Shown one piece after another: positions 1,258-30,500 of a stretch of DNA of 43,589 nt. The notes below the pieces were generated by a model, which worked only from the letters and a program-made list of their open reading frames with translations, did not search any database and was not told the DNA's origin. The stretch's first letter is position 1. The number at the start of each line of letters is the position of its first letter. This DNA is from a virus. The stretch covers positions 1-43,589 of IMG/VR virus record IMGVR_UViG_3300021379_000637; one strand, given 5' to 3'. The translations under genes were made by a program, and so were the position numbers.

Positions 1258-1805
1258 TTCTTATCAACCTCTTGCTCTGTACGTCCAGATGGAAACTGAA
1301 ATCCATCGAATGTGTGATTACCTAAAACAAAGTAGTAGTTGTCTGGTTTTGCAAAGTTAAAGTTTAATCTTACACTGACACCATTAGTTGCTGTTACCAT
1401 GTGTTCAAAATCAGAACCTACATAAGCTACTGCCTCTCCTTGAGCTACAGTCAGCTTTTCTTCGTTATAAATCAATTCTAACTCATTATCTGAAAAATAA
1501 TTGTATAAGATTGTGTACTCAACAGGACCATTATCGTAGTGCATGTTCTTTTGTACACCAGGCTCATACCAATTAATTGTTGCAAATGTTGGTAATAAAT
1601 TATGTACAGCAAATGTATCCCTAGCTTTATCTGTAAGCATTTTATGTAAAGTATTCAATTCTTCACACATTTTAACCATGTGAGAGCCATCAGGACTTCT
1701 GTTCCAGTTTGAATTATCGTCATAAGGAGTTTCCATATCAAGCCAAGCTTGTAACTCTTCTAATTGATTACCTTTATATAGTTGAGTTATCTTTACTGCG
1801 TCCAT
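1248..1805 (-). CDS. 2OG-Fe(II) oxygenase-like protein (third of three)
   Basis: 185 aa. It has the 2-His-1-carboxylate facial triad pattern: H89 and D91 in the segment NMHYDNG, a distal H135 in DFEHMV, and R146 in VRLNFNF, eleven residues later, as the likely 2-oxoglutarate carboxylate ligand. The spacing and flanking beta strands fit a double-stranded beta-helix core of the prolyl-4-hydroxylase/PKHD type, but overall the sequence is divergent from its two neighbours. Members use Fe(II), O2 and 2-oxoglutarate to hydroxylate a substrate; the substrate here is unknown. ATG at 1805 shares its A with the preceding stop (TAATG), and AAGGA lies eight bases upstream, which supports this start and translational coupling. 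Confidence 0.72.
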   Translation of the reverse strand: MDAVKITQLYKGNQLEELQAWLDMETPYDDNSNWNRSPDGSHMVKMCEELNTLHKMLTDKARDTFAVHNLLPTFATINWYEPGVQKNMHYDNGPVEYTILYNYFSDNELELIYNEEKLTVAQGEAVAYVGSDFEHMVTATNGVSVRLNFNFAKPDNYYFVLGNHTFDGFQFPSGRTEQEVDKNWL

Positions 1806-7339: not shown

Positions 7340-7536
7340 TATTTAGTACCTTCTCCTTGACCTAAATAGTTCTCAGGGTCATATTTGCTATCTACAAACT
7401 CCCCCAAGGACTTTTCAATCATATTATAATCTAAACCTTCTTCTGATGTGTCTTTTAAAAATGGTAGTGTTCTAGCAATCCAAGCAGTAGCCCAACCTAA
7501 TGCAAATCCACATAATAATGCTATAAATATGTCCAT
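7339..7536 (-). CDS. small membrane protein, 65 aa
   Basis: Residues 2-24 form one hydrophobic segment (IFIALLCGFALGWATAWIA) followed by Arg, Thr and a soluble acidic tail of about 40 residues. It is short enough to be missed but is linked on both sides by TAATG overlaps, which supports its being a real gene. One transmembrane segment with a cytoplasmic-type tail could fit a holin-like, spanin-like or superinfection-related protein. No lysis gene pair is visible beside it, so no function is assigned. Confidence 0.62.
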   Translation of the reverse strand: MDIFIALLCGFALGWATAWIARTLPFLKDTSEEGLDYNMIEKSLGEFVDSKYDPENYLGQGEGTK

Positions 7537-10500: not shown

Positions 10501-13500
10501 GTTTCAGTATTTAATGTTGTAGTAGTTCCACTAACAGTAAGGTCACCAGAAACTACTAAGTCGTTAAAAGTTACATCGCTTGTAGTTCCTACAGCCTGAC
10601 CAATGCTTATTTGACCAGAAGATAAAGTTACACCTGTACCTGCTGAAAAGTGTGCTCTAGTTTCAGAAGCACTAGGTCCCGTATATGTTATTGCACCATT
10701 AGTCGAACTGTATGATAATGAGCCATCACCACCATTGTCAATAACAGAAATCGCACTTCTAGCCCTTGCATTTGTAAAGTAAAGGTTAGAACTACCTTCT
10801 GATAAGTCATCAGTAGTACTGTCTGCTAGAGAAAGTCCTTGTACAGATATGACTCCATCGCCACCCATTCCTGAATGATGTTGACAGTAATAGTAAAGTG
10901 TATCAGCAGTAGCAGCATCAACAACAATTTGTGTGTAAGCACCAGATGAACCTGGAGTTCCGCTTGTTGTTACTCCAGTTGAGTAGTTACTACCAGAAGC
11001 ATGAGTACCATTTTTAGTTGTAGATAAAAGTAAAGGATGTCCAGAGTTAGAACTATCGGATTGGTCAAACCTATATGTAATACCTGGAATAAGCTGTATA
11101 TTTGCATTTAGCTCTGTATCTAAATAATATTTGTTACCAGAGCCAGGGTTAGAAACTGTAACTGCAAATTCAATGATTGCAGTATTGTCTTCAAAGTTTA
11201 TTGTTTTGTTTGTAAGAGTTTGTGAACCTGTAAGTGTTGCAACTGTGCTATCTATAGATACTGCACCAGATGAAACATTTATTCCTGTGCTACCTGTTAT
11301 TGCAGCTTGTGCTCTTGCGTCTGTATAGTATAAGTTTGATGAGCCTTCAGATACATCATCAGTATCTTGTGTCTTAATTCTGAGCATTCCATCATTACCC
11401 ATACCAGAGTGTGCTGTACAGTAGTAGTACAAGTTAGGTGTCATTCCATCTACAACTATTTGTGTATAAGCACCGCTTGAACCTTGTGACCCATTAGTTG
11501 TAACACCTGTTGTATAAGCACTACCGCTATTATGTGTTCCGTCTTTAGTTGATGATAAAGCAAATGGATGACCAGATGTTGAAGAGTCTGATGTATCAAA
11601 TCTATAAGTTACACCTGGAATTAATTGTACAGTACTTGCAAGTTGTCCATCTAAGTAATATTTGTTACTGCCAGAAGCATTAGATACTGTTACAGCATAT
11701 TCAATTATTGCTGTGTTGTCTTCAAAGTTAATTGTCTTGTTAGTTAATGTTTGTGAGCCAGTTAATGTAGCTACAGTTGAATCAATACTTATAGCACCAG
11801 TGCTATTGTCATAAGTAATTCCTGTACTACCAGATAATGATGTTCTTGCTCTTGCAGCAGTATGGTAAAGGTTTGTAGAGCCTTCATTCATACTATCTGT
11901 ATCAAACTCAGAGAAATCTATGCTTATTGTTCCAGAGCTATATGTTATTCCAGTACCACCTGTGTGGTAAGCTGCAACTCTTGCATCGGTGTAATATAAA
12001 TTGGTGGAGCCTTCACTTAAGCTATCAGTGTCGTGATTGCTGATGCTTGACACAGTTCCTGTGACATTTCCAGTCAAGGCTCCTTCAAAAGTCCCCGCTA
12101 CAAATGTCTCACTACCTACAGACCATTTATCTGTGCTTTCATTCCAAACTAATGTCTTATTACTATCATCGCCTCTTTCAATCTCAATACCTGCATTTTG
12201 TGAAGCATTACCTGTAGCATTTGAGTTAAGAAGTATTACATTGTCTGCTAATTCTATTGTCTCAGTATTAACAGTTGTTGTTGTTCCAGATACAGTTAAG
12301 TTACCATCAATAACTACATTTCCGTCTGCATCTATATTGTTAAATGTTACATTGTCAGTTGTACCTACAGACTGACCTATTGCAATCTCACCTGATGTAA
12401 TTGTTACACCAGTGCCACCAGATATGTGTGCTCTGACTTCTGAAGCAGATGGTCCAGTATATGTTATAACTCCTGTCGAGTTGTCATATGACAGTGAACC
12501 ATCTCCTCCAGAATCAGTAACAGAAACAGAAGCTCTGGCTCTTGCATCAGTGTAGTAAAGATTAGATGAACCCTCTGTGAGAGAGTCAGTATCGTGGTTA
12601 GATATAGAACTTACTGTACCAGTTACATCACCAGTTAAATCTGCTGTAACAGAGTTAAATGTTACATCACTTGTTGTTCCTACTTCTTGAGGTATTGTTA
12701 AAGTTAAAGTTCCAGCAGAATCGTCATAGGTAGCAGTAATACCAGTTCCACCAACAATAAGACCATTTACGATATCTTCTAATGCGTCTTCTACTTCTGG
12801 TAAATCTACAGTTAAAGTTAATTGGTCATTGTTGTCGTCATAGCTTATGTCTATACCGCTAGTTGATGAATCTACTAATAAAGCAGCAACTCTATCATCT
12901 ACTCTTTCAGAGGTAAAGTATAAATTAGAACTTCCTTCGGTTAAATCATCTGTTGTAGCGGCAGCAATTCTAGCGTCTGCTCTTGCATTAGTAAAATAAA
13001 GATTTGTAGAACCTTCTGTTAAGTTGTCAGTTGTTTTTGTACCTAACTGTGTATCAAACCTTGCATTTGTATAATAAAGATTTGAGCTACCCTCAGATAA
13101 ACTATCTGTATCGAAGTCACCTAAATCAACTGTAATAGTTGGTGTTGCAGTTTCTCCAGTATTGTTAGCAAGGTCTATACCTGTACCAGCAACAAGACTT
13201 GCAACATAAGCACCTTCAGTATCGGTACCTAAGTTAAGAGGCTCATTTATAAATGCTGAACCATTGTATCTAAGTATGTCACCTGTTTGTGTAGAAGTTA
13301 AGGTTACATCTGATAAATCATTTAAACCAGCAGATAAAGCTACTGTTGGAGTTTGTCCTTCACCTGAAGTAACACTAACACTTATACCAGTACCTGCGAC
13401 TAAGTTTTGTACATAATCACCAATGGTATCTGTAGAAAGGTTAACAGGGTCATTAATCCAATTGCTTCCGTTGTATCTTAAAAAGTCTCCGTTAGCTAAT

Positions 13501-14234
13501 CCTGAAAAAGAAACATCGTTCATTTCTTCTAATGTATCTTCTGTAGCTACTTGAGCATCAACATAAGCAGTAGTTGCTATTTTTGTACTGTTATCACTAG
13601 CACTTTGAGTTGTAGCTGTGACGCCATCTGCAAGTGTAGATGTAGCACTCAACGTACCAGTGAAAGAACCTGCTACGAATCCGTCAGAACCTACTGTCCA
13701 GTAATCATTTGATTCGTCCCATAATAAACTTTTATTTGCTGATGTTCCTCTTTCAATCTCTATACCACCATTTTCTGTTGGTGAACCAGTTACATTATTA
13801 TTTAAAACTATTGTGTTATCGTCGACTGTTAATGTTTCGGTGTTTAATATTGTTTGAGTACCATTAACGGTTAAGTCACCTGTTATTACTACATTGTTAC
13901 TTACTGTTAATCCACTAAATGTGACTGTGTCAGATGTACCTAAACCTAAAGAATCTCTAGCAGTAGAACCACTTTCTACAGTCCATGCTGAACCATTAGA
14001 AACAATAAAAGCACCATCTGCGTGAGATAGTCCTGCTATTGTTGCTAAGTCTTGGTCGTAACCTTGTACATTTACGCCAATTTCAATACCTAAAGCGGTT
14101 CTTGCTGCTGATGCCGTAGTAGCACCAGTACCACCATCATCTATTCCTATAAAATCTGCTGATTGAAATTCAGCAAAACCGATAGCGTTATTACTACCGT
14201 CATAATTAACTCTTACTGGCGTTTTCTCTGCCAT
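7536..14234 (-). CDS. giant repetitive tail fibre, 2232 aa, with two cupredoxin-like domains
   Basis: Residues 34-50 carry GGTGATTASAARTALG, a common phage fibre hinge motif. The shaft holds twelve copies of a DxLTEGSxNLYYTxAR type repeat (the last one divergent, EGTGQLFFTNAR). It also holds four copies of a longer module with DLTVSGTTTTxNTET, GIEIERG, NKTLIWDES and WTVGSE. Two cupredoxin-like domains lie at about 845-950 and 1022-1130, each with a His, then Cys-x2-His-x2-Met as in type 1 copper sites. Residues about 2045-2232 are a non-repetitive globular end with FYGIAR at the terminus, the likely receptor-binding tip. Start overlaps the preceding stop as TAATG. Fibres this long project far from the tail and are expected to be trimeric. 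Confidence 0.88.
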   Translation of the reverse strand: MAEKTPVRVNYDGSNNAIGFAEFQSADFIGIDDGGTGATTASAARTALGIEIGVNVQGYDQDLATIAGLSHADGAFIVSNGSAWTVESGSTARDSLGLGTSDTVTFSGLTVSNNVVITGDLTVNGTQTILNTETLTVDDNTIVLNNNVTGSPTENGGIEIERGTSANKSLLWDESNDYWTVGSDGFVAGSFTGTLSATSTLADGVTATTQSASDNSTKIATTAYVDAQVATEDTLEEMNDVSFSGLANGDFLRYNGSNWINDPVNLSTDTIGDYVQNLVAGTGISVSVTSGEGQTPTVALSAGLNDLSDVTLTSTQTGDILRYNGSAFINEPLNLGTDTEGAYVASLVAGTGIDLANNTGETATPTITVDLGDFDTDSLSEGSSNLYYTNARFDTQLGTKTTDNLTEGSTNLYFTNARADARIAAATTDDLTEGSSNLYFTSERVDDRVAALLVDSSTSGIDISYDDNNDQLTLTVDLPEVEDALEDIVNGLIVGGTGITATYDDSAGTLTLTIPQEVGTTSDVTFNSVTADLTGDVTGTVSSISNHDTDSLTEGSSNLYYTDARARASVSVTDSGGDGSLSYDNSTGVITYTGPSASEVRAHISGGTGVTITSGEIAIGQSVGTTDNVTFNNIDADGNVVIDGNLTVSGTTTTVNTETIELADNVILLNSNATGNASQNAGIEIERGDDSNKTLVWNESTDKWSVGSETFVAGTFEGALTGNVTGTVSSISNHDTDSLSEGSTNLYYTDARVAAYHTGGTGITYSSGTISIDFSEFDTDSMNEGSTNLYHTAARARTSLSGSTGITYDNSTGAISIDSTVATLTGSQTLTNKTINFEDNTAIIEYAVTVSNASGSNKYYLDGQLASTVQLIPGVTYRFDTSDSSTSGHPFALSSTKDGTHNSGSAYTTGVTTNGSQGSSGAYTQIVVDGMTPNLYYYCTAHSGMGNDGMLRIKTQDTDDVSEGSSNLYYTDARAQAAITGSTGINVSSGAVSIDSTVATLTGSQTLTNKTINFEDNTAIIEFAVTVSNPGSGNKYYLDTELNANIQLIPGITYRFDQSDSSNSGHPLLLSTTKNGTHASGSNYSTGVTTSGTPGSSGAYTQIVVDAATADTLYYYCQHHSGMGGDGVISVQGLSLADSTTDDLSEGSSNLYFTNARARSAISVIDNGGDGSLSYSSTNGAITYTGPSASETRAHFSAGTGVTLSSGQISIGQAVGTTSDVTFNDLVVSGDLTVSGTTTTLNTETLTVDDNIIVLNNNVTGTPSENAGIEVERGSSTNKTLIWNEIDGKWTVGSERFDAGSIHSTFTGNLTGNVTGTVSDVSNHDTDDISEGSTNLYYTNARFDTQLGTKDTDDLTEGSTNLYYTDARADARIAAASLGDLSDVTDNASSSGEILRYTGSAWSTSNQLTGISKLNLLNTDKMLSSTYKDVVFRVNPSSASTGDFVDLSFQSDGNSTGIVDFARITVDAVNIDDNGGNAEGAIKFKVANGSLDNIVQITSSGLYLNDGKTLTFEGSTDDAYETTLTVTDPTADRTITFKDASGTVAYTSDIPSDTDGLSEGSSNLYYTNARADARIALANLEDLADIGFSSPGATENQKVVSWDNSAGTFVLSSVSGLSGSGETNTASNIGTAGVGIFDAKVGEDLQFKKLNAGSAKITITDDTSNNEVDIDFGTVSIDDLSDVDTTTSAPTSGQALKWSGSTWEPGDASSQVAQLTDVTLTSLASGEFLQYNGTAWVNVVPDTDDITEGTGQLFFTNARVDARLSGGTGVTYNAGEISIGQAVSTTSDVTFNDLTVSGDLTVSGTTTTVNTETINLADNQIVLNSNATGSASENGGIEIERGDDANKTLIWDESIDKWTVGSETFVAATFEGDATGITSAAVTGLTEDTSPAEDDLLITYDTSAGSLKKVQKSNIAAAVSFSVNDEMPLTLADASSDAIEFTNVGTSATDIDLVLADGSSDPIQIVATSNSATAFRDADNDTKITVEESADEDTIRMDTAGTERVTIDSSGVLDIVSAKLEIAGAAGSADQVLKTDGSGNISWGTASGSMVKLGSATANNTSIIELLQSTTGYNAADYSEFIVKGRWVRPGTDNVRLYAALYSGTSLRSGTYEHAGRYHRIDASDAGGYSQSEQTDYFELTSGTTGTGTREGVAFEVKVIPAGTGSGTGEAPATGVVTWFEYKTWVKYENSASWYVERQGQFDSTSYVDGIKFYMSSGNIAQGDFDFYGIAR
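10845..11171 (-). other. cupredoxin-like domain 2 in the giant fibre
   Basis: Residues about 1022-1130. H1066 lies in SGHPLLL, and C1117, H1120 and M1123 in YYYCQHHSGMGG. The preceding ITYRFDQSD strand and the YTQIVVDA strand fit the Greek-key order of plastocyanin/amicyanin. The C-x2-H-x2-M loop length is that of amicyanin. Copper binding is inferred from ligand spacing, not shown. Confidence 0.68.
11385..11702 (-). other. cupredoxin-like domain 1 in the giant fibre
   Basis: Residues about 845-950. H889 lies in SGHPFAL, and C939, H942 and M945 in YYYCTAHSGMGN. Strands VTYRFDTSD and YTQIVVDG flank the ligands in cupredoxin order. It is clearly homologous to the second domain about 177 residues downstream, with the ligand set conserved in both copies. 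Confidence 0.68.
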
Positions 14235-15719: not shown

Positions 15720-16475
15720 CTATGTGTTTTTAAGAATTGAGGTAATTGAACGGTATGCGTTCTTAAATTTAGTAGTTAAATAAGCTTTTTCTTCTCCGTC
15801 AGCATATATCTGTTCTTCACTCATTTGTCCCATATCTAATATAAAATCGTCTCTTTTAAAAGGAATAACTTGAATAAATGGCGTTCCTCTTTCAATAATA
15901 ATATCTTTTTTTGTATGAAGAAGTGTAGGAAAATTTATGTGATGATAACTGTCTGTTTCAACAATACCTGATAAAACAGTAAACCTTTTTTCAAATTGAT
16001 AATAAGGTGCTAGAAACATAACTGAATATCCTGGTGGTGTATATACTCTCCAAGGATTTGTAAACTTTACACCTTCTTGAAAATCATTTTTACTTAACTT
16101 CCAATTGTATATTTGTTGATTTGAATGAAACTCTATACCATAAGGAAATTTCTTATTATCCCATTCAAGCAATCTTCCATCGTTTTGAAGTAATGTGTCT
16201 GCCCACATTGGAATAATGTAACCTGATGAAATTAAATCTACAATAGCAGGACATCTTTTGACTGTTCCGTTATAAAACTTTTTAGCAGTGTCACCTGTTT
16301 TACCAAAGTATGAAGGAGGACCTTCAGGATTTTTAGGTACTTCTATGTAATCGTGCATATCTTTAAACCATTGTGGAATAAAGTAGCTAGAAGGTTTTAC
16401 AGGTGCAACAGTTTCAAGACCTTTAACATCGGTCTTAAACTCAATTATTTTTTTGCCATCCTTTTTAAATATCAT
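15720..16475 (-). CDS. DUF6065-like protein, 251 aa
   Basis: Full-length paralogue of the truncated gene at 1-569. Shared motifs in order: SGYIIPMW at about 83-90, KFTNPW at 137-142, TPPGYSVMFLAP at 146-157, GIVETDSYHH at 170-179, then ERGTPFIQVIPFKRD near 196-210. From memory this pattern matches DUF6065, an uncharacterised family found in phages and bacteria. The strand order and the GTPFIQVIPF strand suggest a jelly-roll fold; the ETDSYHH segment holds possible metal ligands, but that is inference. No signal peptide. The ATG directly follows the previous TAA. It sits among tail-fibre genes, while its paralogue sits in the oxygenase module, hinting at a role in fibre modification or in a minor virion structure. 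Confidence 0.75.
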   Translation of the reverse strand: MIFKKDGKKIIEFKTDVKGLETVAPVKPSSYFIPQWFKDMHDYIEVPKNPEGPPSYFGKTGDTAKKFYNGTVKRCPAIVDLISSGYIIPMWADTLLQNDGRLLEWDNKKFPYGIEFHSNQQIYNWKLSKNDFQEGVKFTNPWRVYTPPGYSVMFLAPYYQFEKRFTVLSGIVETDSYHHINFPTLLHTKKDIIIERGTPFIQVIPFKRDDFILDMGQMSEEQIYADGEEKAYLTTKFKNAYRSITSILKNT

Positions 16476-16697: not shown

Positions 16698-18479
16698 TTA
16701 ACCCTCCAAGGTTGCTATTCGGTCTTCTAATGTATCTATCTTAGCAGATAAATCTTTTACCGCTTGTACTAATACTGCTTCAAATTCACCATTCATAAGA
16801 CCTCTTGCACCATGTGCTTGTTTTTCAGCAGGTTCGTCTTCTAACCATGGGTCTACATAATACAGTCTATCTATTAACCAAGCTACATCATCAGTATCAA
16901 CACCATCATCTGTAAGTGCTTGCTCAACATCTTGAGCAGTAATTCTAAATGTTTTTCTTTTCATTGATGAAAAAGAGTTTCTATAATTTTCATCTGGATT
17001 AGAAGCAACCAATCTATCTACATATCCTTCATTAAAGTTTGCTGTTACAGGATTTAATCTATTAATAACATTAAGACCTGGTACAGAGTTAGCATTTACT
17101 GATAAGAACCTATCATCGTGCATCCATGCGTTAATAGTTTGATTACCACTATGACTGTGATTCAAGGCAGCATAAGTGTGAGTATGGTTTGAAATAGAAC
17201 TATGGTTATGAAAAGAGCTAGCATATGCGTGGTTGTGTGAACTAGCAGCATAAGAGTGATTATGGTCACTGGCAGCATAATTATGGTTATGGTTACTAGA
17301 AGCATAAGAGTGACCGTGTCCTATTGAAGAATATGCGTGGTTATGATTAGGAACATTGTGATTATGATTACCAAAATCAATATTGTTTTGAGTTACAAAA
17401 GAACTATGGTCATAAGAGTTTAATGAATGGTTTACTGACAAAAATCCAGAGTGACTTGTATGATTGTCATTTGTTAAAACATTATTAGGCAAATTGTTAG
17501 ATGTTAAAAATGCATTGTGGTCATAAATATTCATAGAGTGAGTAGCATCTAATTTTGCTTGCAAAGCAGTATTAGTTGCATAAGAACTTAAATCTGCATT
17601 TTCTAAAAAGTTTGCGTGAGAGTGGTTTAATGCTTGTACATATATTGGATGTGGGTTGCTAGCACTTGTATGGGAGTTAGTTAGATAACTACTGTCATGG
17701 TCATGGTTACCTCTTGAAGAAGTATTTGTTGTGTTACCATATACAACCGATATTGCATCATTTGTATTATCAATAGCAATACCTGTTCCTGCATTTATAC
17801 CAACAGTTCCTCCAGTTATGTCATGGTAACCCAATGTTCCATTTGAATCTTTACCTAAATATTGACCAGAACTTCCAGAATCACCATTTACAGTTAGAGT
17901 GCTTCCATCAACAGTCAAATCTCCAAGTATTGTAAAAGTTGTACTATTTGAATTTACACTCCATATATCGTCATCGCCATTACTGAGCTTGAATGTATCA
18001 AAGTTAAAATCTGTTTGTGTAATAAGAAAGAAACCCATTTTTTGATAATCACCTTGAATAGTAAGAGAAGGGTTATCTTCATCACCATCAGCCATAACAA
18101 CAAGTGGTTTAGTAGAAAATAAGTGATTACCAGCAGAACCTTCATCTCTTGAAAATAGAATTGCATCTCCTATTTTTATAGAAGTAGTTCCTGCACCAGA
18201 TGGTGTTCCTGTTGCTTTACCAAAAGATAATATTGGTCCATTAAACTCTGCACCACCACTACTGTCTATTTTAAATCCAGAAACTCCTGATGAATAGTTA
18301 GATTGTATATTAGAAGCGTTAATGTCTATTCCGCCAATAGTTCCTTCTTTTGCAAATAATGAACCTGCACTTGTTACATAAAAATTTGGAGGACCAGCAG
18401 ATATAGCGTCAGATAGTGTATCTCCCTCGCTACCATTGCCTAACCATATGTTACCTGTTGTATCTAAATGAAATCCCAT
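16698..18479 (-). CDS. tail fibre with nine-fold HxH needle region and chaperone-like C-terminus
   Basis: 593 aa. Residues 1-240 are beta shaft modules (FHLDTTGNIWLG, GTIGGIDINASN, SGVSGFKIDSSGG) that continue the pattern at the end of the preceding hub gene. Two isolated HxH motifs lie at 259/261 and 286/288. Nine more lie at 372, 379, 388, 397, 406, 415, 424, 432 and 441, spaced seven to nine residues apart in NHNHAYASS-like units. This resembles the T4 gp37 needle, where HxH histidines of three chains bind iron. Residues 510-593 (FRITAQDVEQAL, then GEFEAVLVQAVKDLSAK and a final coiled coil) resemble the C-terminus of S74 intramolecular chaperones, but the catalytic SDxxLK segment is absent. 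Start ATG follows the hub stop by one base, with AGGA four bases upstream. Confidence 0.85.
   Translation of the reverse strand: MGFHLDTTGNIWLGNGSEGDTLSDAISAGPPNFYVTSAGSLFAKEGTIGGIDINASNIQSNYSSGVSGFKIDSSGGAEFNGPILSFGKATGTPSGAGTTSIKIGDAILFSRDEGSAGNHLFSTKPLVVMADGDEDNPSLTIQGDYQKMGFFLITQTDFNFDTFKLSNGDDDIWSVNSNSTTFTILGDLTVDGSTLTVNGDSGSSGQYLGKDSNGTLGYHDITGGTVGINAGTGIAIDNTNDAISVVYGNTTNTSSRGNHDHDSSYLTNSHTSASNPHPIYVQALNHSHANFLENADLSSYATNTALQAKLDATHSMNIYDHNAFLTSNNLPNNVLTNDNHTSHSGFLSVNHSLNSYDHSSFVTQNNIDFGNHNHNVPNHNHAYSSIGHGHSYASSNHNHNYAASDHNHSYAASSHNHAYASSFHNHSSISNHTHTYAALNHSHSGNQTINAWMHDDRFLSVNANSVPGLNVINRLNPVTANFNEGYVDRLVASNPDENYRNSFSSMKRKTFRITAQDVEQALTDDGVDTDDVAWLIDRLYYVDPWLEDEPAEKQAHGARGLMNGEFEAVLVQAVKDLSAKIDTLEDRIATLEG
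17151..17366 (-). repeat. nonapeptide HxH coding repeat
   Basis: About nine units of roughly 27 bases encode xHNHAYASS-like peptides (residues 372-443 of the fibre). On the plus strand the units read as variants of gaatgattatggtcactagcag-like sequence. The regular three-multiple spacing preserves frame through unit gain or loss. Confidence 0.8.
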
Positions 18480-18480
18480 A

Positions 18481-21400
18481 TTATCCTATGTGTAATTCTC
18501 CTCCAGTAATTGTAACAGAAGTTGCTACGAGGTCACCGCTATTAGTTACAGAAAATGGTGCGTTACCTAGAGTATGATGTCCTAAATACATGTTTCCATT
18601 TTCGTCTACTACAAATACAGATGTATCTGTTGTACTGTCATATTTAGCAGTAGCACCAATTGTTAATGTACCACCAACTACATCACCTCTAAATGTTCCG
18701 TCATTAAATTCTACAGTACCGTCATTATTCAAACTAAACCCTGATGAACCAGAAGAATAATTACCTTTAATAGTTGTATTTCCAGCATCTAGTTCTAAGT
18801 TACCAGCTGTTAGTTTGTTACTAGCTATTGACCAACCACCAATGTTTCCTGTTGTAGCAGTTATGTTACCTCTTATTAAAGCATCATTTATTTCTATAAA
18901 ACCATCAGGATATGTAGCATTAGATTTTTGTATTGACCAACCTGAAGTACCAGATGAATAATTATCAGATTCAATTAAGTTTCCAATCTTAACATTTGAT
19001 ATAGCTGCATCAGCAATCTTTGCAGTTCCTACAGCTAAGTTTTGTATTTTTGCTTCAGTAATTGCAGCATCATCTATATGTTGGGTTTCAATTAAACTAG
19101 CAGTTCCTTGTTCTTCATCTGAAGCGTCTGATTCATTTCCAGCATTATCCACTGCTGTAAATCTGAAAAACATTGTTTGAGCACTATCTAAAGACTCGCC
19201 TTTAAGTGTTGCTACTGCTGGAATATTTAATCTTAAATAAGAAGCGTCACAAGGTATGTTACCTAATTTAGTTGATTCTCCTACTGTAAAGCCAGAAGTA
19301 GTAGAACCATAAACATTTAAGTGAGCTAAATCAGCAGGTAATGTAAAGTTAGTCACGCTGCTAACTGGATTTCCTGCGTCATCTGTAGCCCTACCTAAAT
19401 GATGTATTATTTGTACTGCACCTGCTATGGTTGCAATAGTTGTAGCTTGTGCTGGTTTATTAGGTTGAGCAGTGTCAACTGCTGTTGTTATTGTTTCATA
19501 AACATATCCTGAAGCTGCACCAGTAGTTACAGCTTGGACACCAACCTTGTAATCAGTGGCTTTTTGTAAACCTTCAACAGTAAATGTTTCATTACCCCAT
19601 TGTACAAAGTATTTGGTAGCGTCACCTAAATCAGGGTTTACAGGTTCTACTGATATTTCATAATGTAAACCATTTTCAATTACAGTACCACTTGTATTTC
19701 TAGGAGTTCTCCATTCTATAAATATAATAGATTGTTGAGTACCTACTGCATCTGTATAAAAACTTGATGTAGTTCTTATTCCTTCAGAATCAACATCATC
19801 AGGGTCTAGTACTTTTCCTGGCTTATATTCTGTTCTACCAGTAGTAGTACCAGATAATTGATTTGAAAATCTTAAATCATCACCTATCTGTTTACCTAAA
19901 TCTCCAACATCAAGTGAAGTATTACCTGATTCAAATATTACATAATCTGATAAATCTACATATCTAACTTGATATGGTGATGTACTTGTAACCTTTCTTA
20001 AGTAAACACCAAAGGTATCTTCTATTGGATATGTGATACCAATAATTCTTATCTTTTCAGGATTTATATATTGACCCTGCCATATTGCTTCATAAGGTTC
20101 ACTTCTACCATCAGCAATAGCCTTAGTAGGAGTATCAACAAAACCTACTTCAGGGTCGTAAACATAAATGTTATCTCCAACTTCAAAGTCACCTTTTATG
20201 TCATAGTATTCAAGTGATAATGACAGAGACTTTTTAGTCCTAGTAAATTCATCTAAATAAGCTTCTGCTCTTTTGGGAGCCATTAGTGCATTTGTATCAG
20301 ATTCATTAACATAAGCTACTCTTTCAAGTGGATTACCAAATAAATCGTAATAAGGGACATCTGTTAAGAATCTTTCTACTAAGTCTATGTTTTGACCATC
20401 AGAACCTACGTTCTTTAAATATTCGACACCAGATACCCAATCTTCAGCTTCAAACTGTGTAGTTAATGCATCAGGATTCAAACCTATAATTCCTGGGTCT
20501 TCACCTGAAGAGTCTCTAACAATAATTGCTTTAGGCTCTGCTGTACCATGACCTTCAAATAAATTTTCTCTAGGTCCTGCATCTATTGTTCCAGTAGTAT
20601 TTACTTTATATTCTGTGTCTAAAGAAGACATTACCTTTTTCAAAGCATTTAAAACTGATTCAACATTATGTAAACCTGTGTAGCTATTAGCAGTATTATC
20701 TACTGTTGGTGCTGATGTAGAAGGTGTAAAGTTAGCATTATATAAAGCTTCACCTTTAGTAACTTTTAATCCGTCTATATATCCTTTAAAATAATCTGCT
20801 TGTTGACTTCTACCTATTGAAAAGTTTAAAGATGCTTTTTCATCAGTACCACTTGTCTTAGCATCTCTAGTTACTCTTTTAACAGTCTTATCTGAAGTCC
20901 ATTGTGTTACTAATGTACCATTTTCCCAAGTAGTAAACTTATTACCTTTTCTAGTTATAGCTCTATGAACCCATTGTCCATTTGCTCTATCACCCAACTT
21001 AATACCATTTGCAATATCCCAAATAGTAGAATCAATTCCTGTTATACCATCTATTGTGCTTTCAGCTCTAGTGCTTGTCATAAATACTTGTAATTCACCA
21101 GAACCATTGTCTAACCCAAATATATAAGGAGGGACCGAACCATCATTCTGAGCTGCTATAGCTGGTCCATGTGTAGTTCTAGGTCTTACGCTTGTAAATG
21201 TTTGTGCACCTTTATACCATCTGTTATTTATTTGCCAAAATTGTGAAAATGCTTTTTGATAAAATGGGTCTTCTTCCCAATAGTTTTCATTTCCTGGGTC
21301 AGTATCGTAAATAGAAGCATCACCTGTGTAATACTGTGGAATTTCGTTTTCTCTTCCTTGTTCTAATAATGTTCTAATAGTATTAGTAACAGCACCAGTT

Positions 21401-22518
21401 GGTAAGGTTGTTTGAACAATATCTACCCATGCTGGTGCATTTGGTCTAGCCATAAAAAAGTCCTGATTTATTGCAGGTCCTTGATACCATTGTGAATTTG
21501 TTCTAGGGTCAAGTGGTGTAGCAGTAGGATTAACTGCACTGTTAGAACCAAGTAGCTCATCAATGTCTTCTCGTCTTTGTTTAATTAATGCTGGGTCCCA
21601 AAGTAATTTGTTTTCCCAAGTAACTTTATGACCATTGACAACAATGCCTTCATTGGGTTTGTGTATTAGTAATAGATTAGAAGCTATAGCAGCATCACCA
21701 TTTGGATAATCCATAGGTCTTGCTTTTGCACCTAAAAACATAAGTGCATAACCTGCATCGTTATAAGCAGATAAATTGCTTGAACTTGTTACAGATGTAC
21801 CATCAACTTGTTTATATTCGTAAACAAATAAAGTGTCTTCAAAAGCTTCCTTACCTATTGCAAAACATAAACCAACCATCATATCAAAATGTTGTTGAGC
21901 TAGTGTCGTGTCATAAGGAAATGCATCTTCATGTCCAGTAAATACTGAGATAACTTTATTTTTAAAACCTACTAAATCTTCTGCTAATAATGTAGAAGCA
22001 ATAGACTCCGAGAAACGTTGATTCGATGTCGAACTATCGTCTCCTATGTATTTAATTCTTATACCCTTAGTTATTACATTATTACTTGCATCTAAGTATT
22101 TACCACCGTCATCAGTAGTAGCAAATACATCACCTTTTTGTATTGGAAATACATAATCTACATTATTAATTTGAAAGGTAGTTGCATTAGAATCTGTTGC
22201 ATTTTCTTTTACAGAATAAAAGTCATAGAATAAAGCGTCGGAGCCTTTCCATTGTGCACCTTCATTTCTATATGTATGACCATATCCAACAACTAAATTA
22301 CCTCTGACACCATTATGAAAATCTGGGTCATAAGGAACTCTACCACCAACACTCTCTGCGTATATAGTAGAACCAGAAGGAACTGGGTCATTATCTAAGT
22401 AGTTACCTAAATTTGGGTATCCAGTGTCATAAACAAAAGGAACAAAACCAATTCTATTCTTTACTTTTGTTATTCCACCAGAGCTTATATTTGCATTTGC
22501 TAAATCAAACTGCGGCAT
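18481..22518 (-). CDS. tail hub/central fibre C-part with lysozyme-like and LamG insertions, 1345 aa
   Basis: Residues about 10-235 resemble a GH24-type lysozyme: GFVPFVYD at 24-31, LVVGYGHT at 75-82, SESIASTLLAEDL near 170-182 and LAQQHFDMMVGLCF near 206-219. The usual catalytic Glu is Ile23 and the Thr is Val76. Residues 236-445 are unassigned. Residues 445-600 are the second half of a LamG domain (GQWVHRAITRKGN, NGTLVTQW, FKGYIDGLKVTKGE) whose first half ends the previous gene. Residues 605-900 are hub-like (YTGLHNVESVLNALKKVM, VGDNIYVYD). Two fibronectin III-like domains lie at 905-1013 and 1018-1138. An IDDAAITEAKIQNLAVGTAKI linker and GGWSI beta modules end the protein, as in central tail fibres. 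ATG at 22518 overlaps the previous stop (TAATG) with GGGAGG upstream. Confidence 0.82.
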   Translation of the reverse strand: MPQFDLANANISSGGITKVKNRIGFVPFVYDTGYPNLGNYLDNDPVPSGSTIYAESVGGRVPYDPDFHNGVRGNLVVGYGHTYRNEGAQWKGSDALFYDFYSVKENATDSNATTFQINNVDYVFPIQKGDVFATTDDGGKYLDASNNVITKGIRIKYIGDDSSTSNQRFSESIASTLLAEDLVGFKNKVISVFTGHEDAFPYDTTLAQQHFDMMVGLCFAIGKEAFEDTLFVYEYKQVDGTSVTSSSNLSAYNDAGYALMFLGAKARPMDYPNGDAAIASNLLLIHKPNEGIVVNGHKVTWENKLLWDPALIKQRREDIDELLGSNSAVNPTATPLDPRTNSQWYQGPAINQDFFMARPNAPAWVDIVQTTLPTGAVTNTIRTLLEQGRENEIPQYYTGDASIYDTDPGNENYWEEDPFYQKAFSQFWQINNRWYKGAQTFTSVRPRTTHGPAIAAQNDGSVPPYIFGLDNGSGELQVFMTSTRAESTIDGITGIDSTIWDIANGIKLGDRANGQWVHRAITRKGNKFTTWENGTLVTQWTSDKTVKRVTRDAKTSGTDEKASLNFSIGRSQQADYFKGYIDGLKVTKGEALYNANFTPSTSAPTVDNTANSYTGLHNVESVLNALKKVMSSLDTEYKVNTTGTIDAGPRENLFEGHGTAEPKAIIVRDSSGEDPGIIGLNPDALTTQFEAEDWVSGVEYLKNVGSDGQNIDLVERFLTDVPYYDLFGNPLERVAYVNESDTNALMAPKRAEAYLDEFTRTKKSLSLSLEYYDIKGDFEVGDNIYVYDPEVGFVDTPTKAIADGRSEPYEAIWQGQYINPEKIRIIGITYPIEDTFGVYLRKVTSTSPYQVRYVDLSDYVIFESGNTSLDVGDLGKQIGDDLRFSNQLSGTTTGRTEYKPGKVLDPDDVDSEGIRTTSSFYTDAVGTQQSIIFIEWRTPRNTSGTVIENGLHYEISVEPVNPDLGDATKYFVQWGNETFTVEGLQKATDYKVGVQAVTTGAASGYVYETITTAVDTAQPNKPAQATTIATIAGAVQIIHHLGRATDDAGNPVSSVTNFTLPADLAHLNVYGSTTSGFTVGESTKLGNIPCDASYLRLNIPAVATLKGESLDSAQTMFFRFTAVDNAGNESDASDEEQGTASLIETQHIDDAAITEAKIQNLAVGTAKIADAAISNVKIGNLIESDNYSSGTSGWSIQKSNATYPDGFIEINDALIRGNITATTGNIGGWSIASNKLTAGNLELDAGNTTIKGNYSSGSSGFSLNNDGTVEFNDGTFRGDVVGGTLTIGATAKYDSTTDTSVFVVDENGNMYLGHHTLGNAPFSVTNSGDLVATSVTITGGELHIG

Positions 22519-23207
22519 TATGCCTCCCTATATTCCCACCATTCAACTGTAAAATCTTCAGATTCTAATTGGAAATGATAAGAATAGTCAACCTCCAAGT
22601 AATCTCTATCACCATCTAAATATAATGAACTACTGCCAAATTTAGATTGGTCTGTACTTATCTTTGCATTTCCATAAAATTCAACATCATGTTTTTTAGA
22701 TGTACCGTCAGTGGTTGTTTTATCACCATTAGTGCCTTCAAAATTTAAAAGTAAGTCTGTGCTTTCTTTACTAGGGTTGGTAATAGTTCCAGGTCTTATA
22801 GCTCTTAATCCAGCGTCTCTACCATCTCTTAATATTCCATAAGGAGTTCCGTCTTTATTATTAAGAACATACTCTAATGAAACATTTTCAAAACTTCTCA
22901 TATTAGAAATATCACCTTGGTCAGAAATAGGCATACCACGACTACCACCGTCACCTAAATATGTTCCTAGACCTGCACCTGTTATTTCTACAGATTCATC
23001 TCCCAATCCTAATGTTTTTATAACACCAACATATTCAGCTGAAGTCAACATAGCTGAATCATTTAACTCATCTTCAGTAACTCTTGAAGGAACAATGACT
23101 ATTTGGTCCCAAGCGTCAATACTGTTTAAAACTGAGTTAGGAAGTTTGTTGTAATCTAGTTGTACATTAAATGACCCTTGAGCCATTAATTTTTCTGTTA
23201 CTGACAT
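22518..23207 (-). CDS. tail hub N-part ending in half a LamG domain, 229 aa
   Basis: Residues 1-148 look like the N-terminal domain of a tail hub (gp27/Tal-like): FNVQLDYNKLPNSVL, WDQIVIVPSR, SLEYVLNNKDGTPYGILR. Residues 150-229 are the first half of a LamG/concanavalin-like domain: DLLLNFEGTNGDKTTTD, KFGSSSLYLDGDRDYLEV and EDFTVEWWEYRE. The chain stops just after EWWEYREA, where LamG domains normally continue. The matching second half is found 445 residues into the next gene. The product probably associates with the next protein to complete the fold. Its start overlaps the previous stop as TAATG. Confidence 0.78.
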   Translation of the reverse strand: MSVTEKLMAQGSFNVQLDYNKLPNSVLNSIDAWDQIVIVPSRVTEDELNDSAMLTSAEYVGVIKTLGLGDESVEITGAGLGTYLGDGGSRGMPISDQGDISNMRSFENVSLEYVLNNKDGTPYGILRDGRDAGLRAIRPGTITNPSKESTDLLLNFEGTNGDKTTTDGTSKKHDVEFYGNAKISTDQSKFGSSSLYLDGDRDYLEVDYSYHFQLESEDFTVEWWEYREA

Positions 23208-24556
23208 TAAGACTTCACCAACTTCTGATATTCATAAACATTATCAAAGTATTGGTCTCTTACTGAAGTGGCAGAGTCTGCTGAGTTAACAGATGAGTCT
23301 TCTTGTGCTAATTCATATCCAATAAAAGCTTTCATTTGAGAACCATTTTTATGCATCATTTCTCTTCCAACATCAAATAGTAAAGAAGAAGCAGCACTGT
23401 CTGGACTACCTAATATCCATTTATTTCCATCAGAAGGTGAAGATGTATTATCAATAATATAACCTGTACCTGTAGCAGCATCTGTTCCTGAATAAGTTGA
23501 TAATGATAAATTAAATCTACTTGCTGTAAACTGATTAGCTACTATTGATACATGGTGTGAGCCACGTCTTAATGTAAAATCTACTACTAACCTACCGTCT
23601 TTGCTATCAGCATTTAGGTAAGTAGTACATCTTACAGTTGCACATTCTGGGTGATTTTTTAGTATCTGCATAGTTCTCCAACCAAGCCAGTTTGTTGCAA
23701 GGTGGTCACTACCAGAAGGAGCTCCTCTAGTAAATGCCCATGTCTTACTTGATTGATAGTCAGAGACATCAAATATGTAAGTATTAAATAAAGCTTGAGT
23801 TGTTGAAGCACTAAATTCTACTTTTACTAATCCATTTTCTATAGTTAGACTTCCAGGTTTATTAGTAGAAAATAAACCACATCTTATTTCTTCACCAGTA
23901 TCTGTCAAAGTTTGTACGTTATTACTTGTAGAAGTAAATCCTTTATAATAAGTTCCTGTTTTTATTAAACAAGCTCCTTTATAAAAGTCTTCAGGCTCTA
24001 CATGGTATTGAGCATTAGCAGTTCTTAAATTATTATCAGTTTTAAGTCTTAAAGTTGTAGTTGCACCAGTAGCAGTACTTGTTTCATCTTTAGCTAATCT
24101 TGTACCATCTGTTGGTTCACTAGGATGATAATAATTATAATGGTCACCAGGTGCAGCATGAAACTGATTAGTAGTGCTAGTTACACTATGGTCATTATCT
24201 AATAATGCACCAGTAAATCTTGATTCAAATACTACTTCTCCAGACCTACCTAAGTATTCAAAATCAACACTATAACTCAGTCCACCACGTTGATACCTTT
24301 TAGTTTGAATATTAGAAGAATTAACTTTTACATATCCGTCATAAGTTGAGTCTCCGTCATACCTGAATGGGACTGTTAAACCATAAGAAGCTAAAGATAC
24401 TAATTCATCTCTAATATATTTGATATGTTCTAAGGTAATTTCTTCTCCACCCATTTTACCTTGGATGCTTAAAGTTCTACCACCATCTCCAGATTCAAAT
24501 GATAATGAACCAGGTGATGTGAAAGATAATCTACCTATATGTACTTTAAAAGCCAT
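23207..24556 (-). CDS. distal-tail-like minor tail protein, 449 aa
   Basis: Follows the tape measure, the usual place of the distal tail protein. The first 110 residues (VHIGRLSFTSPGSLSFE, LVSLASYGLTVPFRYDGDSTYDGYVKV, LSYSVDFEYLG) resemble the ring-forming N-terminal domain of such proteins, with a strand-rich pattern and a short-range packing of hydrophobic residues. Residues 110-449 are a further beta-rich region with no motif I recognise (RLVVDFTLRRGSHHVSIV). It probably forms the ring that connects the tail tube to the hub. The start overlaps the tape-measure stop as TAATG with GGAG upstream. A different minor tail protein is possible. Confidence 0.7.
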   Translation of the reverse strand: MAFKVHIGRLSFTSPGSLSFESGDGGRTLSIQGKMGGEEITLEHIKYIRDELVSLASYGLTVPFRYDGDSTYDGYVKVNSSNIQTKRYQRGGLSYSVDFEYLGRSGEVVFESRFTGALLDNDHSVTSTTNQFHAAPGDHYNYYHPSEPTDGTRLAKDETSTATGATTTLRLKTDNNLRTANAQYHVEPEDFYKGACLIKTGTYYKGFTSTSNNVQTLTDTGEEIRCGLFSTNKPGSLTIENGLVKVEFSASTTQALFNTYIFDVSDYQSSKTWAFTRGAPSGSDHLATNWLGWRTMQILKNHPECATVRCTTYLNADSKDGRLVVDFTLRRGSHHVSIVANQFTASRFNLSLSTYSGTDAATGTGYIIDNTSSPSDGNKWILGSPDSAASSLLFDVGREMMHKNGSQMKAFIGYELAQEDSSVNSADSATSVRDQYFDNVYEYQKLVKS

Positions 24557-27500
24557 TATCTCCTCGACAATCCAGTTCCTGAAACGCCTTCCTTTTCAAG
24601 ATTAACTAATGCTTTCTGTATTTGAACTGCTGCCTTTCTAGCCTGTATTGGGTCAGTAGGGACACCAGTTACATTTACATTGACATTTCCTACAGTTATA
24701 CTACCACCTCTTTCAGAACCTTGAGGTGTTACTCTTAATCCACCACCAGGAAGTGCTGTTACAAACTCTGGTCCGTATTCACCAACAAGTGCTCTTTGGA
24801 AAGGTTTAACTGCACCTCCATACTTTCTCTTCAATACATATCCATATTTTTTATCACCAAGATTATCAAGCATTCCTATAACTTTTGAATATAGGTCGTT
24901 AATGTAACTTTGGTTACCTCTACCTATTTGGTCTTGATAATTTAATCTATGGTCATCATTAGGTGATACCGTTCTACCAGTTGAAGGTTGAATAGGAATA
25001 CCTCTGTTAGCACCAGTTACTCCTAGTGGATATCCAGACATTCCTAAGTCTTCCAATACTTTTTCTACTCTTGATATATTTTGACCAGTTGCTCTGTTGT
25101 AAACATCTATTAAATCTTGACGAACTTTTAAGTCGTATTCTTTTTGATTAATTCCTAATCCCTTGTCTTTTTTGTAGTTGTAAGTAACTTTTTCACTGTC
25201 AGATAATCTTGATAAGTCACCCATACCAGTTAACTGCATACCAGTACCACCAAGTACAGTTGCACCATAGTTTTGAGATGCTCCTGAACCTTCTGCTTGT
25301 GGTATAGAGGAAGTATCTGAAATACCTAAATTTTCTAATTGTTGTTGTGAAAAGTTTATCTGACCTGCTGTGTCTAAGTTTGTTGCTACTCCAAGATATG
25401 ACTGAATTGCTCTTGTGTAATCAGCAAATGTAATTTCCTGTCCTTTATCAATTCTTGACAATGCCATTTGGCTAGCTGTATAGTCATCTAAGCTTTCAAA
25501 TACACTTCTATCTCCACCAGATGTTTTACCTGCATCTACTGCTGAATTTTTTAATGCAGTACCAGCTCTCATGTTGGTAAGAAGTGGTGCTAAAGCAGTA
25601 CCTTGAAATAATTGATTAAATTCTTCAGCTGTTGCTACTGCATTCCTTCTATTCATTGCATCATCTGCGGCAGATTCAAAAGACGTATCTCCAAGTAAAT
25701 CTAATGATTGTACATGAGCAAAAGCTGCGTTAGCTTCTGTAACAATTTCTCTGATTGCTTGTATAGCTCTATCAGCACCAGTCTCAGTTGCAGTTACAAA
25801 ATTGTCTGTTTTTTGTTTAATTAAATCTATAGTGCTTCCAACTCCACCATACCCTTGTACTATGGCATCAAATAATTCTGGTGAGCTTTTAGCAAATTCT
25901 GCAAACTTATCTCTAGCATCTGCATACTTCATTTCAGCAGTAAATACATTTTCAGTAGCAGCATCTAAGTTGTCATAAGCAGTTTGTAATTCATAACTTG
26001 AGTTAGCAGCTTCATCAAGAAGAGTTATATTTTCTTCTCTTAAAGAAATTAGTTCTTGGTCAACCTCTCTAGCTTCTTTTTCAGTCTCCTGTAATTTCTT
26101 TTCAGCTTCAGCTAGTTTTAATATTTCGACACGTTGTTCGTCAATAGTTTTATTAGTACCTTTTAGCTCAGCTAGTTTTTCTTCGGCTACTTCAACATCT
26201 AATGCATCAACAATGCCTGCTTCAGCTGCTAGTCTTAATTCTTCTAATTCTTTTTCAGCATCAGCAATTGCTTTACGCTCAGAAGCAGACTTCTTACCAC
26301 TCATATCTCGTTTCAATTGGTCTATAGATATTTTTTGTTGAAGAATGTTTAGTTCTTCAGTCATAGTGATATTGTTTTTACGTCCTTCTAATTCTGCTTT
26401 TTGTAAAGCTATTTGATTTTTAAGTATTCTTTCACTTAATGAAGCATTCTTTCTCCTAGTAGCCATAAGTGCTTGTTCAGACTTTTGTACGGCATAGTTT
26501 GCAGCAGTAACACCTCTTTGAGCACTTGTTACAGCAAACATAGTAGCTAAAGCTTTTTGTAGCCCACTAACTGCTTCTGGTATAGTCATTAATAAGACTT
26601 GACCTTCTTCTATGGCATCATTAATTACAGTTGTAAGTGCATCTCTTATAGTTCCGTCTTCATTAAAAATACCTAATGCTATACCTTGTGCTAATGGTTC
26701 ACCAAGTACTTCAGCAGTTAATTTAGAAGGAGAACCCTCTTTAATGTAATATCTAGTAGCATCAATTGCATTTTTCATAGTTCCAACAAATACTTGTTCA
26801 AGCTGATTACTATTTTGTTGTATTCCCATGATGATACCTTCAGCTGCATTTTCACCCATAATCAAACCAGACTGTTGCATTTTTTCAATTTCTTGTTCGC
26901 TTATACCTAAGTCTTCAGCTTTAAATGGAGCTACTCTAGTTAAAGAAGCTTCAAGTGTAAATGCAGCAACTGGGTCTTTAAGTAAATCAGCTAGTACTTC
27001 TTCGGCTGCTAAACCTTGTTCTGCTATATCTTTAGCAAGCATTGGTGCAATAGTAGAAAGTCTCTTGACATCGTTCTGGAAATTTTTAAGTCTTGTTTCT
27101 TTAATAACCATTTCCTCAATCATTCTGTCAACACTCTTACGTATAGTTTCAGGCATTCCTGAAAATACAGAAGCTAAATTGCCTGAAGCTTTTTGTAGTG
27201 ATTCATTTAATGATTTTTCAAATTTAGTCATTTGGAATTCGAGTAATCCCAACTGTTTAGCACTTTGTTGTGCCTGTGCTATTTGTTGTTGTTGGTAAAC
27301 TCTACTTGCATTTGAAACTTCTCTAATAGCTCTTGCCCTGTCTTTTTCAGGGTCAATGTCTTGCATTATGACACCATTTTGTTTTAGGAAGTCTGCTTGT
27401 TTTTTCAATCCTTCATTTTGCATTTGTATAAATGTAGAATTAGAATCCGCTAAATCATCTACTGCACCTACACCTTGACGTCTTGTAACTTCAGCTAATA

Positions 27501-30500
27501 ATATATATCCATTTAATGCGTCAATAGAAGCTTCTATATCTGCACCCTTTAAATCATCTTTTAATATAGAAAACAAAGGAGTCTTGACAATTTGCATGGT
27601 AGTTGCACCATATTGACCTGCAATCATCTTTTGTTGTTCAGTAAATACATTTACATATTCTTCACCGTTCTTAGTAATAATTTCATATTGCATTCCAATA
27701 TCTTTAACTTGGTCACGTAAAGTGTTTTTATCTAATAAACCAAATGAAGCTGAGTCTTGGAATATTCCAAAAGCATCACCCATATCTGCGACAATACCTT
27801 CAAAATCTTGACCAGCTTGTTGTGCAAATTGTGCAAGCATTTCTCCAGCTGCTAATTCTTGTTCTAATAGAGCAAGTCTTTCTCGTTCTTCTTTAGACAA
27901 TACATTCGCACCTCTTAAGTCATCAATCTCTTGTTGGGTTTCTTCAAAGTTTTGTACTGCTGTTAATAATGAATTAACTGTACTGTTTTCAAAATCTTGT
28001 ATCTGCCTACCAACCATCATGTAATATTCTTCTAAGTCGAAAGTAGTCCCTAATGCGTGATTAATAGCATCTAATCTAGCTGAAACGTCTATTCCTTTTT
28101 CAGTAGTTTCTAGTAATAAACTTTTACCTAGTTCAGCTGTAGATTTATCTATGTTAAATGCAGCCTCAGCTATACCTTTATCCATATCTATAAGCTGTTG
28201 AGTATAAGTATCTACTAATGCTTGGTCAGGTGTTGCTTTTTGTAATTCTTCATCTAAGGCTTCTTGTATTAAATCTCTTTGTAAACCGCTGAATACCATT
28301 TGGTCTTGTAAATCAATAACTGCTTTAATTTCGTCACCGATTTCTCTAATAGCAGCAGATGTCTTTTTAGCGTTTTCCCACATCTTCATTAAGTAACTAA
28401 ATACAGCTGTTGTAGCAACCATTATTGCCATACTGGATAGAAGTGACATAAAAGCAGCTTTCAGACCCATTATTGCATTACCTAAGCTTGTTGTGGCTAT
28501 TTTAAATGCTTGACTGCTTTGAGCAGATGACATCAATGCTTGTTGATTTGCCATAAGTGCTTTACGTTTCATAGTCAAAGCTTTTATTAAAGCTCTAGTT
28601 GTTCCTACAGTTTTTGCTTGTTCTGCATTAAATCCTGCTAGTCCTTTTATAGCAGGACCAATTTGTCTAGCAGTAGCACCAAAACTTGACCTTTGAAGTC
28701 CTTTTTCAGTTCCCGCTCCAACAACCTGTGTGTTAGGTAGGAATCTACCTGATGCTTGTTTAACTGCATTCTTTTCTAATTGTTTATTGACTTGTGCAAG
28801 TTTAGTTTGTGTTTCATTAAGTTCGCCTTGAATTTCGTTTTGGTTACCTTTTATCGAAGCAGTAACTTTTTCATCAACTTGTCCCATTTTTTGAACTTCT
28901 GTAACAACTTCTTTAAGTTCTTTATGATAAAGTTGTACACCATGAGCTGCATCATTAAAATCTTGACCCAAGTTATCCATTTCATCACCAAGCTTTTTAA
29001 TATTTAACTTAGTTTGGTCAACAGAGTTTCTTAAATCATCAACTTCCTTTTCAGCTTTTATAAATGCATCAGTACCTTGGTCAGTTCTTGAAGCAAGTTC
29101 TTTTTGTGCCGATGCTAGTTCCCTTTCTTGTTGCTCTAAAATATTTAGCTGTGTTGTTAACTTAGAACCCTGAAGTTTCAAGTGGTCCATATCTTCTGCA
29201 TCAATACCTTCAAACTCACTTACATCTGGTGCATCAGTTTGAGCTCTTGACGTTTTAGCTTTTAGTTCCTCTGCTCTTTTAGACATATTTCCAGTAGCAG
29301 CTTGATTTTGCTTTTGTTCTTCTGTAGTAATTTTAGATTGTAATTTTGCTTCTTGTTCAAGAAGAGCTTTCTTTTTCTTTTCAAGTTCTAATTGTTTAGC
29401 GTTCTCACCAGTATTTTTGGCTTCCTCACCATTTATAGCTTGAAGTATTCTTAGACGGTCTTGCTCTGCTGTTGTTAAATTACGAGATACACCATCTTCT
29501 TCTACTGTTATATCAGATACATCTCCAGTAGGTAATACTCCACCAAATTTATCTAACAGTTCTTTATTTGCTTTATGGTCAAAAGCGTCTATACCTTGTA
29601 GCTCAGCTACATTAAGAATATTTGCCATACCAGCAGTATTTCTACCTAAAGAAGCTTGTTGTGCTAAATAGTTTTCCCTATTAAAGTCAAAAGTTTTATC
29701 ACCAGAACCCATCAAATCTAATGACCTAGCAAAATCTTTTCTTTCTCCTTTACCTCTTAGTCCATCTCCTCTAAGCCTTAAAGCACCATCTATTCCAGTA
29801 CCTGTTATACCAGCTGTCATTGCTGCCATATTTAACTGAGACATTTTTTTGAAGGAAGTATATGCAAAGTTTGCTGATACTGCAAAAGCTGCCATACCCT
29901 TACCAATGGCTGCTAAATCATCTCGTGTTGTACCACCAACAATTGTTGTTAAAGTATCTAATAATTCATTTAATGGTTTTAATGTATTGTTACCTATTTC
30001 TATACCTAAAGCAGTAACATTATTTCTAAGTATTCCCATTTGAGAAACAACAGTTGCATATCTTTTTTCTGCCTCTGTTTGTAAAGCAGTATTTAAAGCA
30101 AATTCTTCATTAGCAGAACTCATTGCTTCTTTTACATCATCTGAAGCCATAGCCATAGAACGTAACGCTCTTAATGTTCTTTGCTGACCTAATCCTAATT
30201 CGTCTAATAACTGAACTGTGTTTGCACCAGCATTACCAACTTGTTGTAATCCATCTAAGAATGCAACAAAAGCTTGTGCTGGAGATGCCTCTGCTAAATT
30301 AGCAAAAGACTCTGATGACATATTTGCTACTTTTGCAAATATAGAAAGTTCCCTACCACCTTCCATTACGGCAGTAGCCATAATGTCTAATGACCTAGCA
30401 ACAGCAGTAGAACCAGCTTGTGTTTGCTGACCTACTTGTTTCAAAGCAGCTGCTAAAGCTAATGAGTCAGCGGCAGTGTTAGATGTTGGTGATTCTAATA

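Follow-up and report, generated by a model that had tools for sequence, protein, structure and literature searches.

The window, the whole 43,589-nucleotide stretch analyzed here (positions 1-43,589 of IMG/VR record IMGVR_UViG_3300021379_000637, from an uncultured virus), very probably encodes a phage tail hub of the gp27/VgrG type, the protein plugging the tail tip, which is made as two chains following two nested insertions. In this arrangement, a lysozyme-like cassette lies inside a LamG domain, which itself lies inside the hub, and the gene is broken where the cassette begins. The two genes concerned, g1 and g2, occupy the minus strand and overlap by 1 base (TAATG), with g1 ending in ..DFTVEWWEYREA and g2 beginning with MPQFDLANAN. 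These genes and sequences had been described in a reading made from the letters alone (the sequence-only reading), and the ORFs and their translations reproduced them. Their parts, with the basis for each, are as follows.

22518..23207, minus strand: g1, 229 aa, made up of the hub N part and the first LamG half (ORF; occurs as its own gene in 24 related contigs)
22773..23207, minus strand: g1 residues 1-145, hub N part (28 relatives have it joined straight to hub C within a single ORF; the model of an intact hub resembles gp27-type hubs)
22527..22772, minus strand: g1 residues 146-227, first LamG half up to EWWEYR (phrog_24074, 71 bits, positions 413-492; in 21 relatives it runs unbroken into the second half)
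22522..22530, minus strand: Shine-Dalgarno-like TAGGGAGGC, within the end of g1 and 3 nt before the ATG of g2 (duplex of -10.5 kcal/mol with the anti-Shine-Dalgarno sequence)
18481..22518, minus strand: g2, 1345 aa, cassette, second half of LamG, hub C part, fn3, and tail-tip region (ORF; Pfam fn3 and Phage_Tail_Tip above cut-off)
21178..22518, minus strand: g2 residues 1-447, GH24-type lysozyme-like cassette with I/T/V at the catalytic E/D/T positions (Pfam, structure model, and triad table)
20683..21177, minus strand: g2 residues 448-612, second LamG half (phrog_24074 positions 544-630; joined halves 414-630, 112 bits)
19723..20682, minus strand: g2 residues 613-932, hub C part (alignment to intact hubs; fold of an intact hub)

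The sequence-only reading had placed a second LamG half after the cassette, beyond g2 residue 445, followed by a resumption of the hub that would continue g1 from residue 148. Both elements are present in that order, and the borders had to be moved: the second half of LamG begins at g2 residue 448 (TTHGPAIAAQ), and the hub resumes at g2 residue 613 (YTGLHNVES) as the partner of g1 residue 145. Taken alone, g1 has no Pfam match, and the matches of its last 80 residues are to phage families that bear LamG; g2 by itself additionally gives weak matches to Laminin_G_3 and Phage_lysozyme. An annotation would list g1 as a short protein without a Pfam family, which masks part of the hub.

Identity of the hub

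The genes run in the order portal, protease, major capsid protein, head-tail adaptor, major tail protein, tape measure protein, a 449-aa gene, g1, and g2. The two genes that precede g1 are the following.

24556-31128: tape measure protein (TMP)
23207-24556: 449-aa gene at the position of the distal tail protein (Dit)

The same order, with the hub after the tape measure and distal tail proteins, is seen in relatives L084 and L068. The hub of an intact relative (L070, 456 aa) was modeled from an alignment that included the window's rows, and the model is of modest confidence (pLDDT 60.9, pTM 0.54). When it was compared with the PDB by Foldseek, the top matches were all hubs, with E values from 6e-10 to 1e-4: the tail proteins 3d37 (E 6e-10) and 3cdd, the P1 baseplate 9vzk, hubs of contractile systems, VgrG 4uhv, and gp27 2z6b. 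A profile search of the PDB gave no match for the hub and only weak lysozyme matches for the cassette. The earlier identification of a tail hub is thus borne out by the fold of an intact relative and by the gene order after the TMP and Dit-position genes, and the model supports the assignment of g1 and g2 to a siphophage-type baseplate hub of the gp27/VgrG kind (Tal). We infer a hub trimer at the tail tip and the stoichiometry of its chains.

Three architectures in uncultured relatives

Relatives were IMG/VR contigs found by degenerate peptide patterns and mapped with domain profiles, and the counts below include contigs that are near-copies of one another. In class 1 (28 loci), hub N runs straight into hub C within one ORF (..GTITEPSGTYTGKHYTES..), with neither LamG nor cassette. 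In class 2 (21 loci), a whole LamG occupies the same hub loop in the same ORF (..DFTIEWWEYRTSSSGNPTVMARNN..), again with no cassette; the 998-aa protein of L152, for example, has Laminin_G_3 at residues 199-346 (66.8 bits), followed by fn3 and Phage_Tail_Tip. Class 3 comprises the window and 24 other contigs, in which the cassette follows EWWEYR and the gene is split. Single-gene hubs lacking the cassette, which the sequence-only reading had proposed to look for among related phages, therefore exist both with and without LamG. Because each insertion step is seen separately in the one-ORF loci and the whole-LamG loci, the proposed nesting of cassette in LamG in hub is documented by living relatives, and class 2 is the intermediate that the nested model predicted.

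Searches of isolate phages with the hub, the cassette, and the joined hub gave no match, so this hub lineage has no recognizable cultured member in the isolate collection searched. The 60 pattern matches in GTDB genomes did not include a relative. The phages that carry the split hub are an uncultured, probably marine group.

A LamG domain probably shared by two chains

Next, we consider the LamG halves. The joined halves (g1 residues 146-227 plus g2 residues 448-612) scored 35.0 bits against Pfam Laminin_G_3 (cut-off, 27.6 bits), while the second half alone scored 27.8 bits and the first half gave no match. Against phrog_24074, the first half scored 71 bits, the second 40 bits, and the joined halves 112 bits in one envelope, with the two halves collinear along the one profile. 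The match is not due to chance, because with both profiles the joined halves outscore the separate ones. Membership in LamG by a full-domain profile is thus seen in the joined halves, and 21 relatives have the domain whole. The break site is constant, falling after EWWEYR in all 24 split relatives. The model that spans both halves, in which g1 and g2 of L055 are fused by reading through the single in-frame TGA of that contig, is of low overall confidence (pLDDT 64, pTM 0.40); it informs on the lysozyme fold but is too weak to establish a single sandwich. The halves of g1 and g2 would most likely co-fold into one beta-sandwich. Separately, a match to Erythrobacter phage L02 (H43) was rejected as a hub relative, its likeness being limited to LamG.

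The g1/g2 junction

Across the 24 relatives, g1 ends 2 to 5 residues past EWWEYR, the distance from its stop to the start of g2 ranges from -1 to +8 nt, and the start of g2 is found in all three frames (0, 1, and 2) relative to g1. The g2 start MPQF is invariant. The stop codons of g1 differ among relatives, and double stops (TGATAA, TGATAG) are common. The occurrence of all three relative frames shows that two chains are made, and the varying frame together with the differing and doubled stops means that no conserved frameshift or read-through links g1 and g2. Both chains are under purifying selection in every part (dN/dS 0.03-0.21). The insert is coding throughout (dN/dS 0.07-0.18), and since positions 18000-24000 also gave no Rfam match that would indicate a self-splicing intron, an intron was rejected.

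The sequence-only reading held that the cassette brings its own start codon and ribosome binding site. This is correct for the start codon. The strong Shine-Dalgarno sequence lies within the last codons of g1, at about -7 to -10.5 kcal/mol in the window and in some of its relatives. Most relatives have only a weak one before g2 or none, so it cannot be counted as a fixed feature of the cassette. Its absence from most relatives suggests translational coupling by closeness, and g1 and g2 are probably coupled through their proximity.

Other explanations of the junction were weighed against these data. A frameshift, hopping, or stop read-through could give a single g1-g2 polypeptide; the stop of g1 and the start of g2 overlap or are no more than 8 nt apart in every relative, and L055 has just the one TGA in frame between its genes. 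This explanation was nevertheless rejected on the frame table of the relatives, and the variable and often doubled stops, the invariant MPQF, and the lack of any Rfam element in the region make it very unlikely. That the split might be an error of assembly or sequencing, as one could suspect of a record from an uncultured virus, has a negligible chance of being right: the same join recurs in 24 contigs, and the split is kept down to about 45% hub identity, so the relatives already refute it. Alternatively, two chains may be made and each may fold alone, with the LamG halves being relics or separate small domains and the chains joined via the hub only. Contacts in the hub could by themselves keep the chains together, and the only model across both halves is the one with a pTM of 0.40. 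We regard separate folding as unlikely all the same, as selection on the two halves is about equal to that on the hub, the break point never moves, and the halves jointly span one LamG profile. Two chains that share one LamG domain is the reading followed below.

The lysozyme-like cassette

The cassette belongs to the GH24 phage lysozymes by profile and by fold. It scores 22.6 bits against Pfam Phage_lysozyme (cut-off, 22.3 bits), and 12 of 16 cassettes match this family. In the fused-chain model of L055, its matches are the SpmX muramidase (6h9d; TMt 0.80) and phage endolysins, with TMt values ranging from 0.71 to 0.80. GH24 enzymes use catalytic Glu, Asp, and Thr residues of the T4 lysozyme type. 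The corresponding residues in the window, as in its clade, are I/T/V, and the catalytic triad is absent; L054 has V/T/V and L045 has I/S/V. This loss was missed by the sequence-only reading. The E/D/T triad is intact in seven other split hubs (L056, L058, L060, L061, L063, L067, and L037), and in L072 it has been degraded independently to V/D/R. Given that the triad is replaced both in the window's clade and in L072, catalysis has probably been lost at least twice, while in the window's clade the region remains under purifying selection. The rest of the window, itself a fragment, showed no further lysozyme. A homing endonuclease was also looked for, and none of the 16 cassettes had a nuclease match; beyond Phage_lysozyme, they gave a few single weak matches. 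In the ancestor, the cassette probably served as a tail lysozyme, and in the window's clade, it is most likely a binding or structural module.

Order of the insertions

In the tree of hub N plus hub C, the split hubs form one side of a branch with 100/100 support, and the whole-LamG hubs form one side of another strongly supported branch. The best free tree places the split hubs beside 19 intact hubs without LamG, over a very short branch (0.014). A constrained tree with the split and whole-LamG hubs as one clade was not rejected (AU p 0.345), and in a tree of LamG only, the LamGs of these two groups are nearest each other (99/95) relative to 12 other phage LamGs. Under the best free tree, a single LamG entry therefore needs either a gain followed by a loss or recombination. 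The simplest history has one entry of LamG and one entry of the cassette into it, followed by loss of LamG in class 1 or by unresolved branching. Because the root of the hub tree is not fixed, we infer the direction of change and the order of the insertion events.

Comparison with known systems

Two-chain hubs are already known. RcGTA has a gp27-type hub of two chains whose genes flank a peptidase gene (PMC7296036), and roseophage R4C has a hub-megatron pair as in RcGTA (PMC10276861; cf. PMC10038345). Like the window, RcGTA (g13 hub, g14 peptidase, and g15 megatron) and R4C have a gp27-type hub that is broken after its first domain, at about 142 to 145 residues, with a cell wall enzyme encoded at the break and insertions of carbohydrate-binding type in the hub (PMC7296036, PMC10276861). 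Unlike in those systems, the break in the window crosses one LamG domain, and the hydrolase is no separate gene between the chains but a lysozyme fused to the second chain. Furthermore, the window's close relatives keep the hub in one gene, isolate phages gave no sequence match, and g1 contains no cysteine and thus lacks the four iron-sulfur cluster cysteines of the RcGTA first chain.

These likenesses bear on whether the two-chain hub is instead ancient, RcGTA-like in its order of hub, peptidase, and megatron, with the one-gene hubs derived by fusion and loss of the insert. The two-chain hubs of RcGTA (PMC7296036) and R4C (PMC10276861), the peptidase gene lying between the RcGTA chains, the break after a similar N-terminal attachment domain (residues 1-142 there and 1-145 here), and the unfixed root all speak for this. 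However, the break crosses LamG, and the same loop elsewhere holds a whole LamG within one gene; going back would take precise excision at both borders; L095-L097, the most distant of the relatives found, have intact, one-gene hubs; and the four-cysteine cluster is missing from g1. An ancient split is therefore decidedly improbable, and insertion into a one-gene hub is preferred.

In T4-like phages, homing endonucleases split genes into working pieces, and in Aeh1 nrdA (split by mobE), T4 gene 60, and phage 25 gene 43, an insertion likewise yields two polypeptides that reassemble (PMC2988022). The insert in the window differs in being a lysozyme-like domain fused to the second half rather than a free homing endonuclease and in sitting within an inserted accessory domain. 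T4 gp5-gp27 is similar in that a gp27-type hub carries a lysozyme fold; T4 carries its lysozyme in gp5, next to the hub, whereas here the lysozyme breaks a LamG inside the hub and, in the window's clade, has no catalytic residues. The cyanophage baseplate wedge initiators (gp7) and related proteins have LamGs of the same family (27-34% identity), each in one chain of another protein, while the hub LamGs form their own group. SpmX, the source of the best fold match to the cassette, is a bacterial protein and not a virion protein. The literature searched contained no split hub with LamG and no split-protein precedent in phages beyond RcGTA and the genes in pieces. What is new here is a break through a single domain that is itself an insert, the fusion of a lysozyme to one half, and the survival of the stages in relatives.

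Proposed mechanism

The relatives suggest the following course of events. A LamG domain (concanavalin-like, of a sugar-binding type) would have entered the loop after the first ~145 residues of the hub. Next, LamG would have been entered, straight after EWWEYR, by a lysozyme-like cassette that carried a start codon of its own; the first chain would thereby stop at this point, and the cassette would form the N terminus of the second. The chains would be translated from touching cistrons, probably coupled, and would most likely rejoin in the tail tip to complete one LamG beta-sandwich and one hub trimer, with the lysozyme hanging from the open side of LamG. It is a long shot that the split LamG also serves as a latch, whose halves would keep the hub closed until LamG and the dead lysozyme bound a surface glycan, which would draw the halves apart and open the tail tube; if so, the split would be kept because it works. 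The relatives provide living examples of each step by which a single gene turns into two chains, probably with one domain in common (no insert, a whole insert, and an insert in an insert with the gene broken). These make it testable how an essential tail hub tolerates cutting and when a virion lysozyme becomes a noncatalytic module.

A second break and other genes of the window

The sequence-only reading missed a second break of the hub gene, behind g2.

16698..18479, minus strand: g3, 593 aa, detached C-terminal portion of the ancestral hub/tip gene, which has become a third gene (match to L068; fusion to g2 in three relatives)

g3 starts 1 nt past g2 and matches residues 805-1240 of the intact hub L068 (25.9% over 602 aa, E 1.5e-31). 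In L056, L058, and L059, g2 and the part that follows form one ORF. From the likeness of g3 to the C-terminal part of intact hubs and from these fusions, it follows that an ancestral single gene is present in three pieces in the window.

Downstream of the hub is a DUF6065-like gene (15720-16475; phrog_7084, 240 bits), and in the intact relatives L068 and L084, the hub is likewise followed by a gene of comparable length (251-254 aa). Elsewhere in the window are a 2232-aa gene with no Pfam match (7536-14234), an HNH/endonuclease VII-like gene within the head-connector module (37421-38050), and two adjoining genes of the 2OG-Fe(II) oxygenase family (1805-3201).
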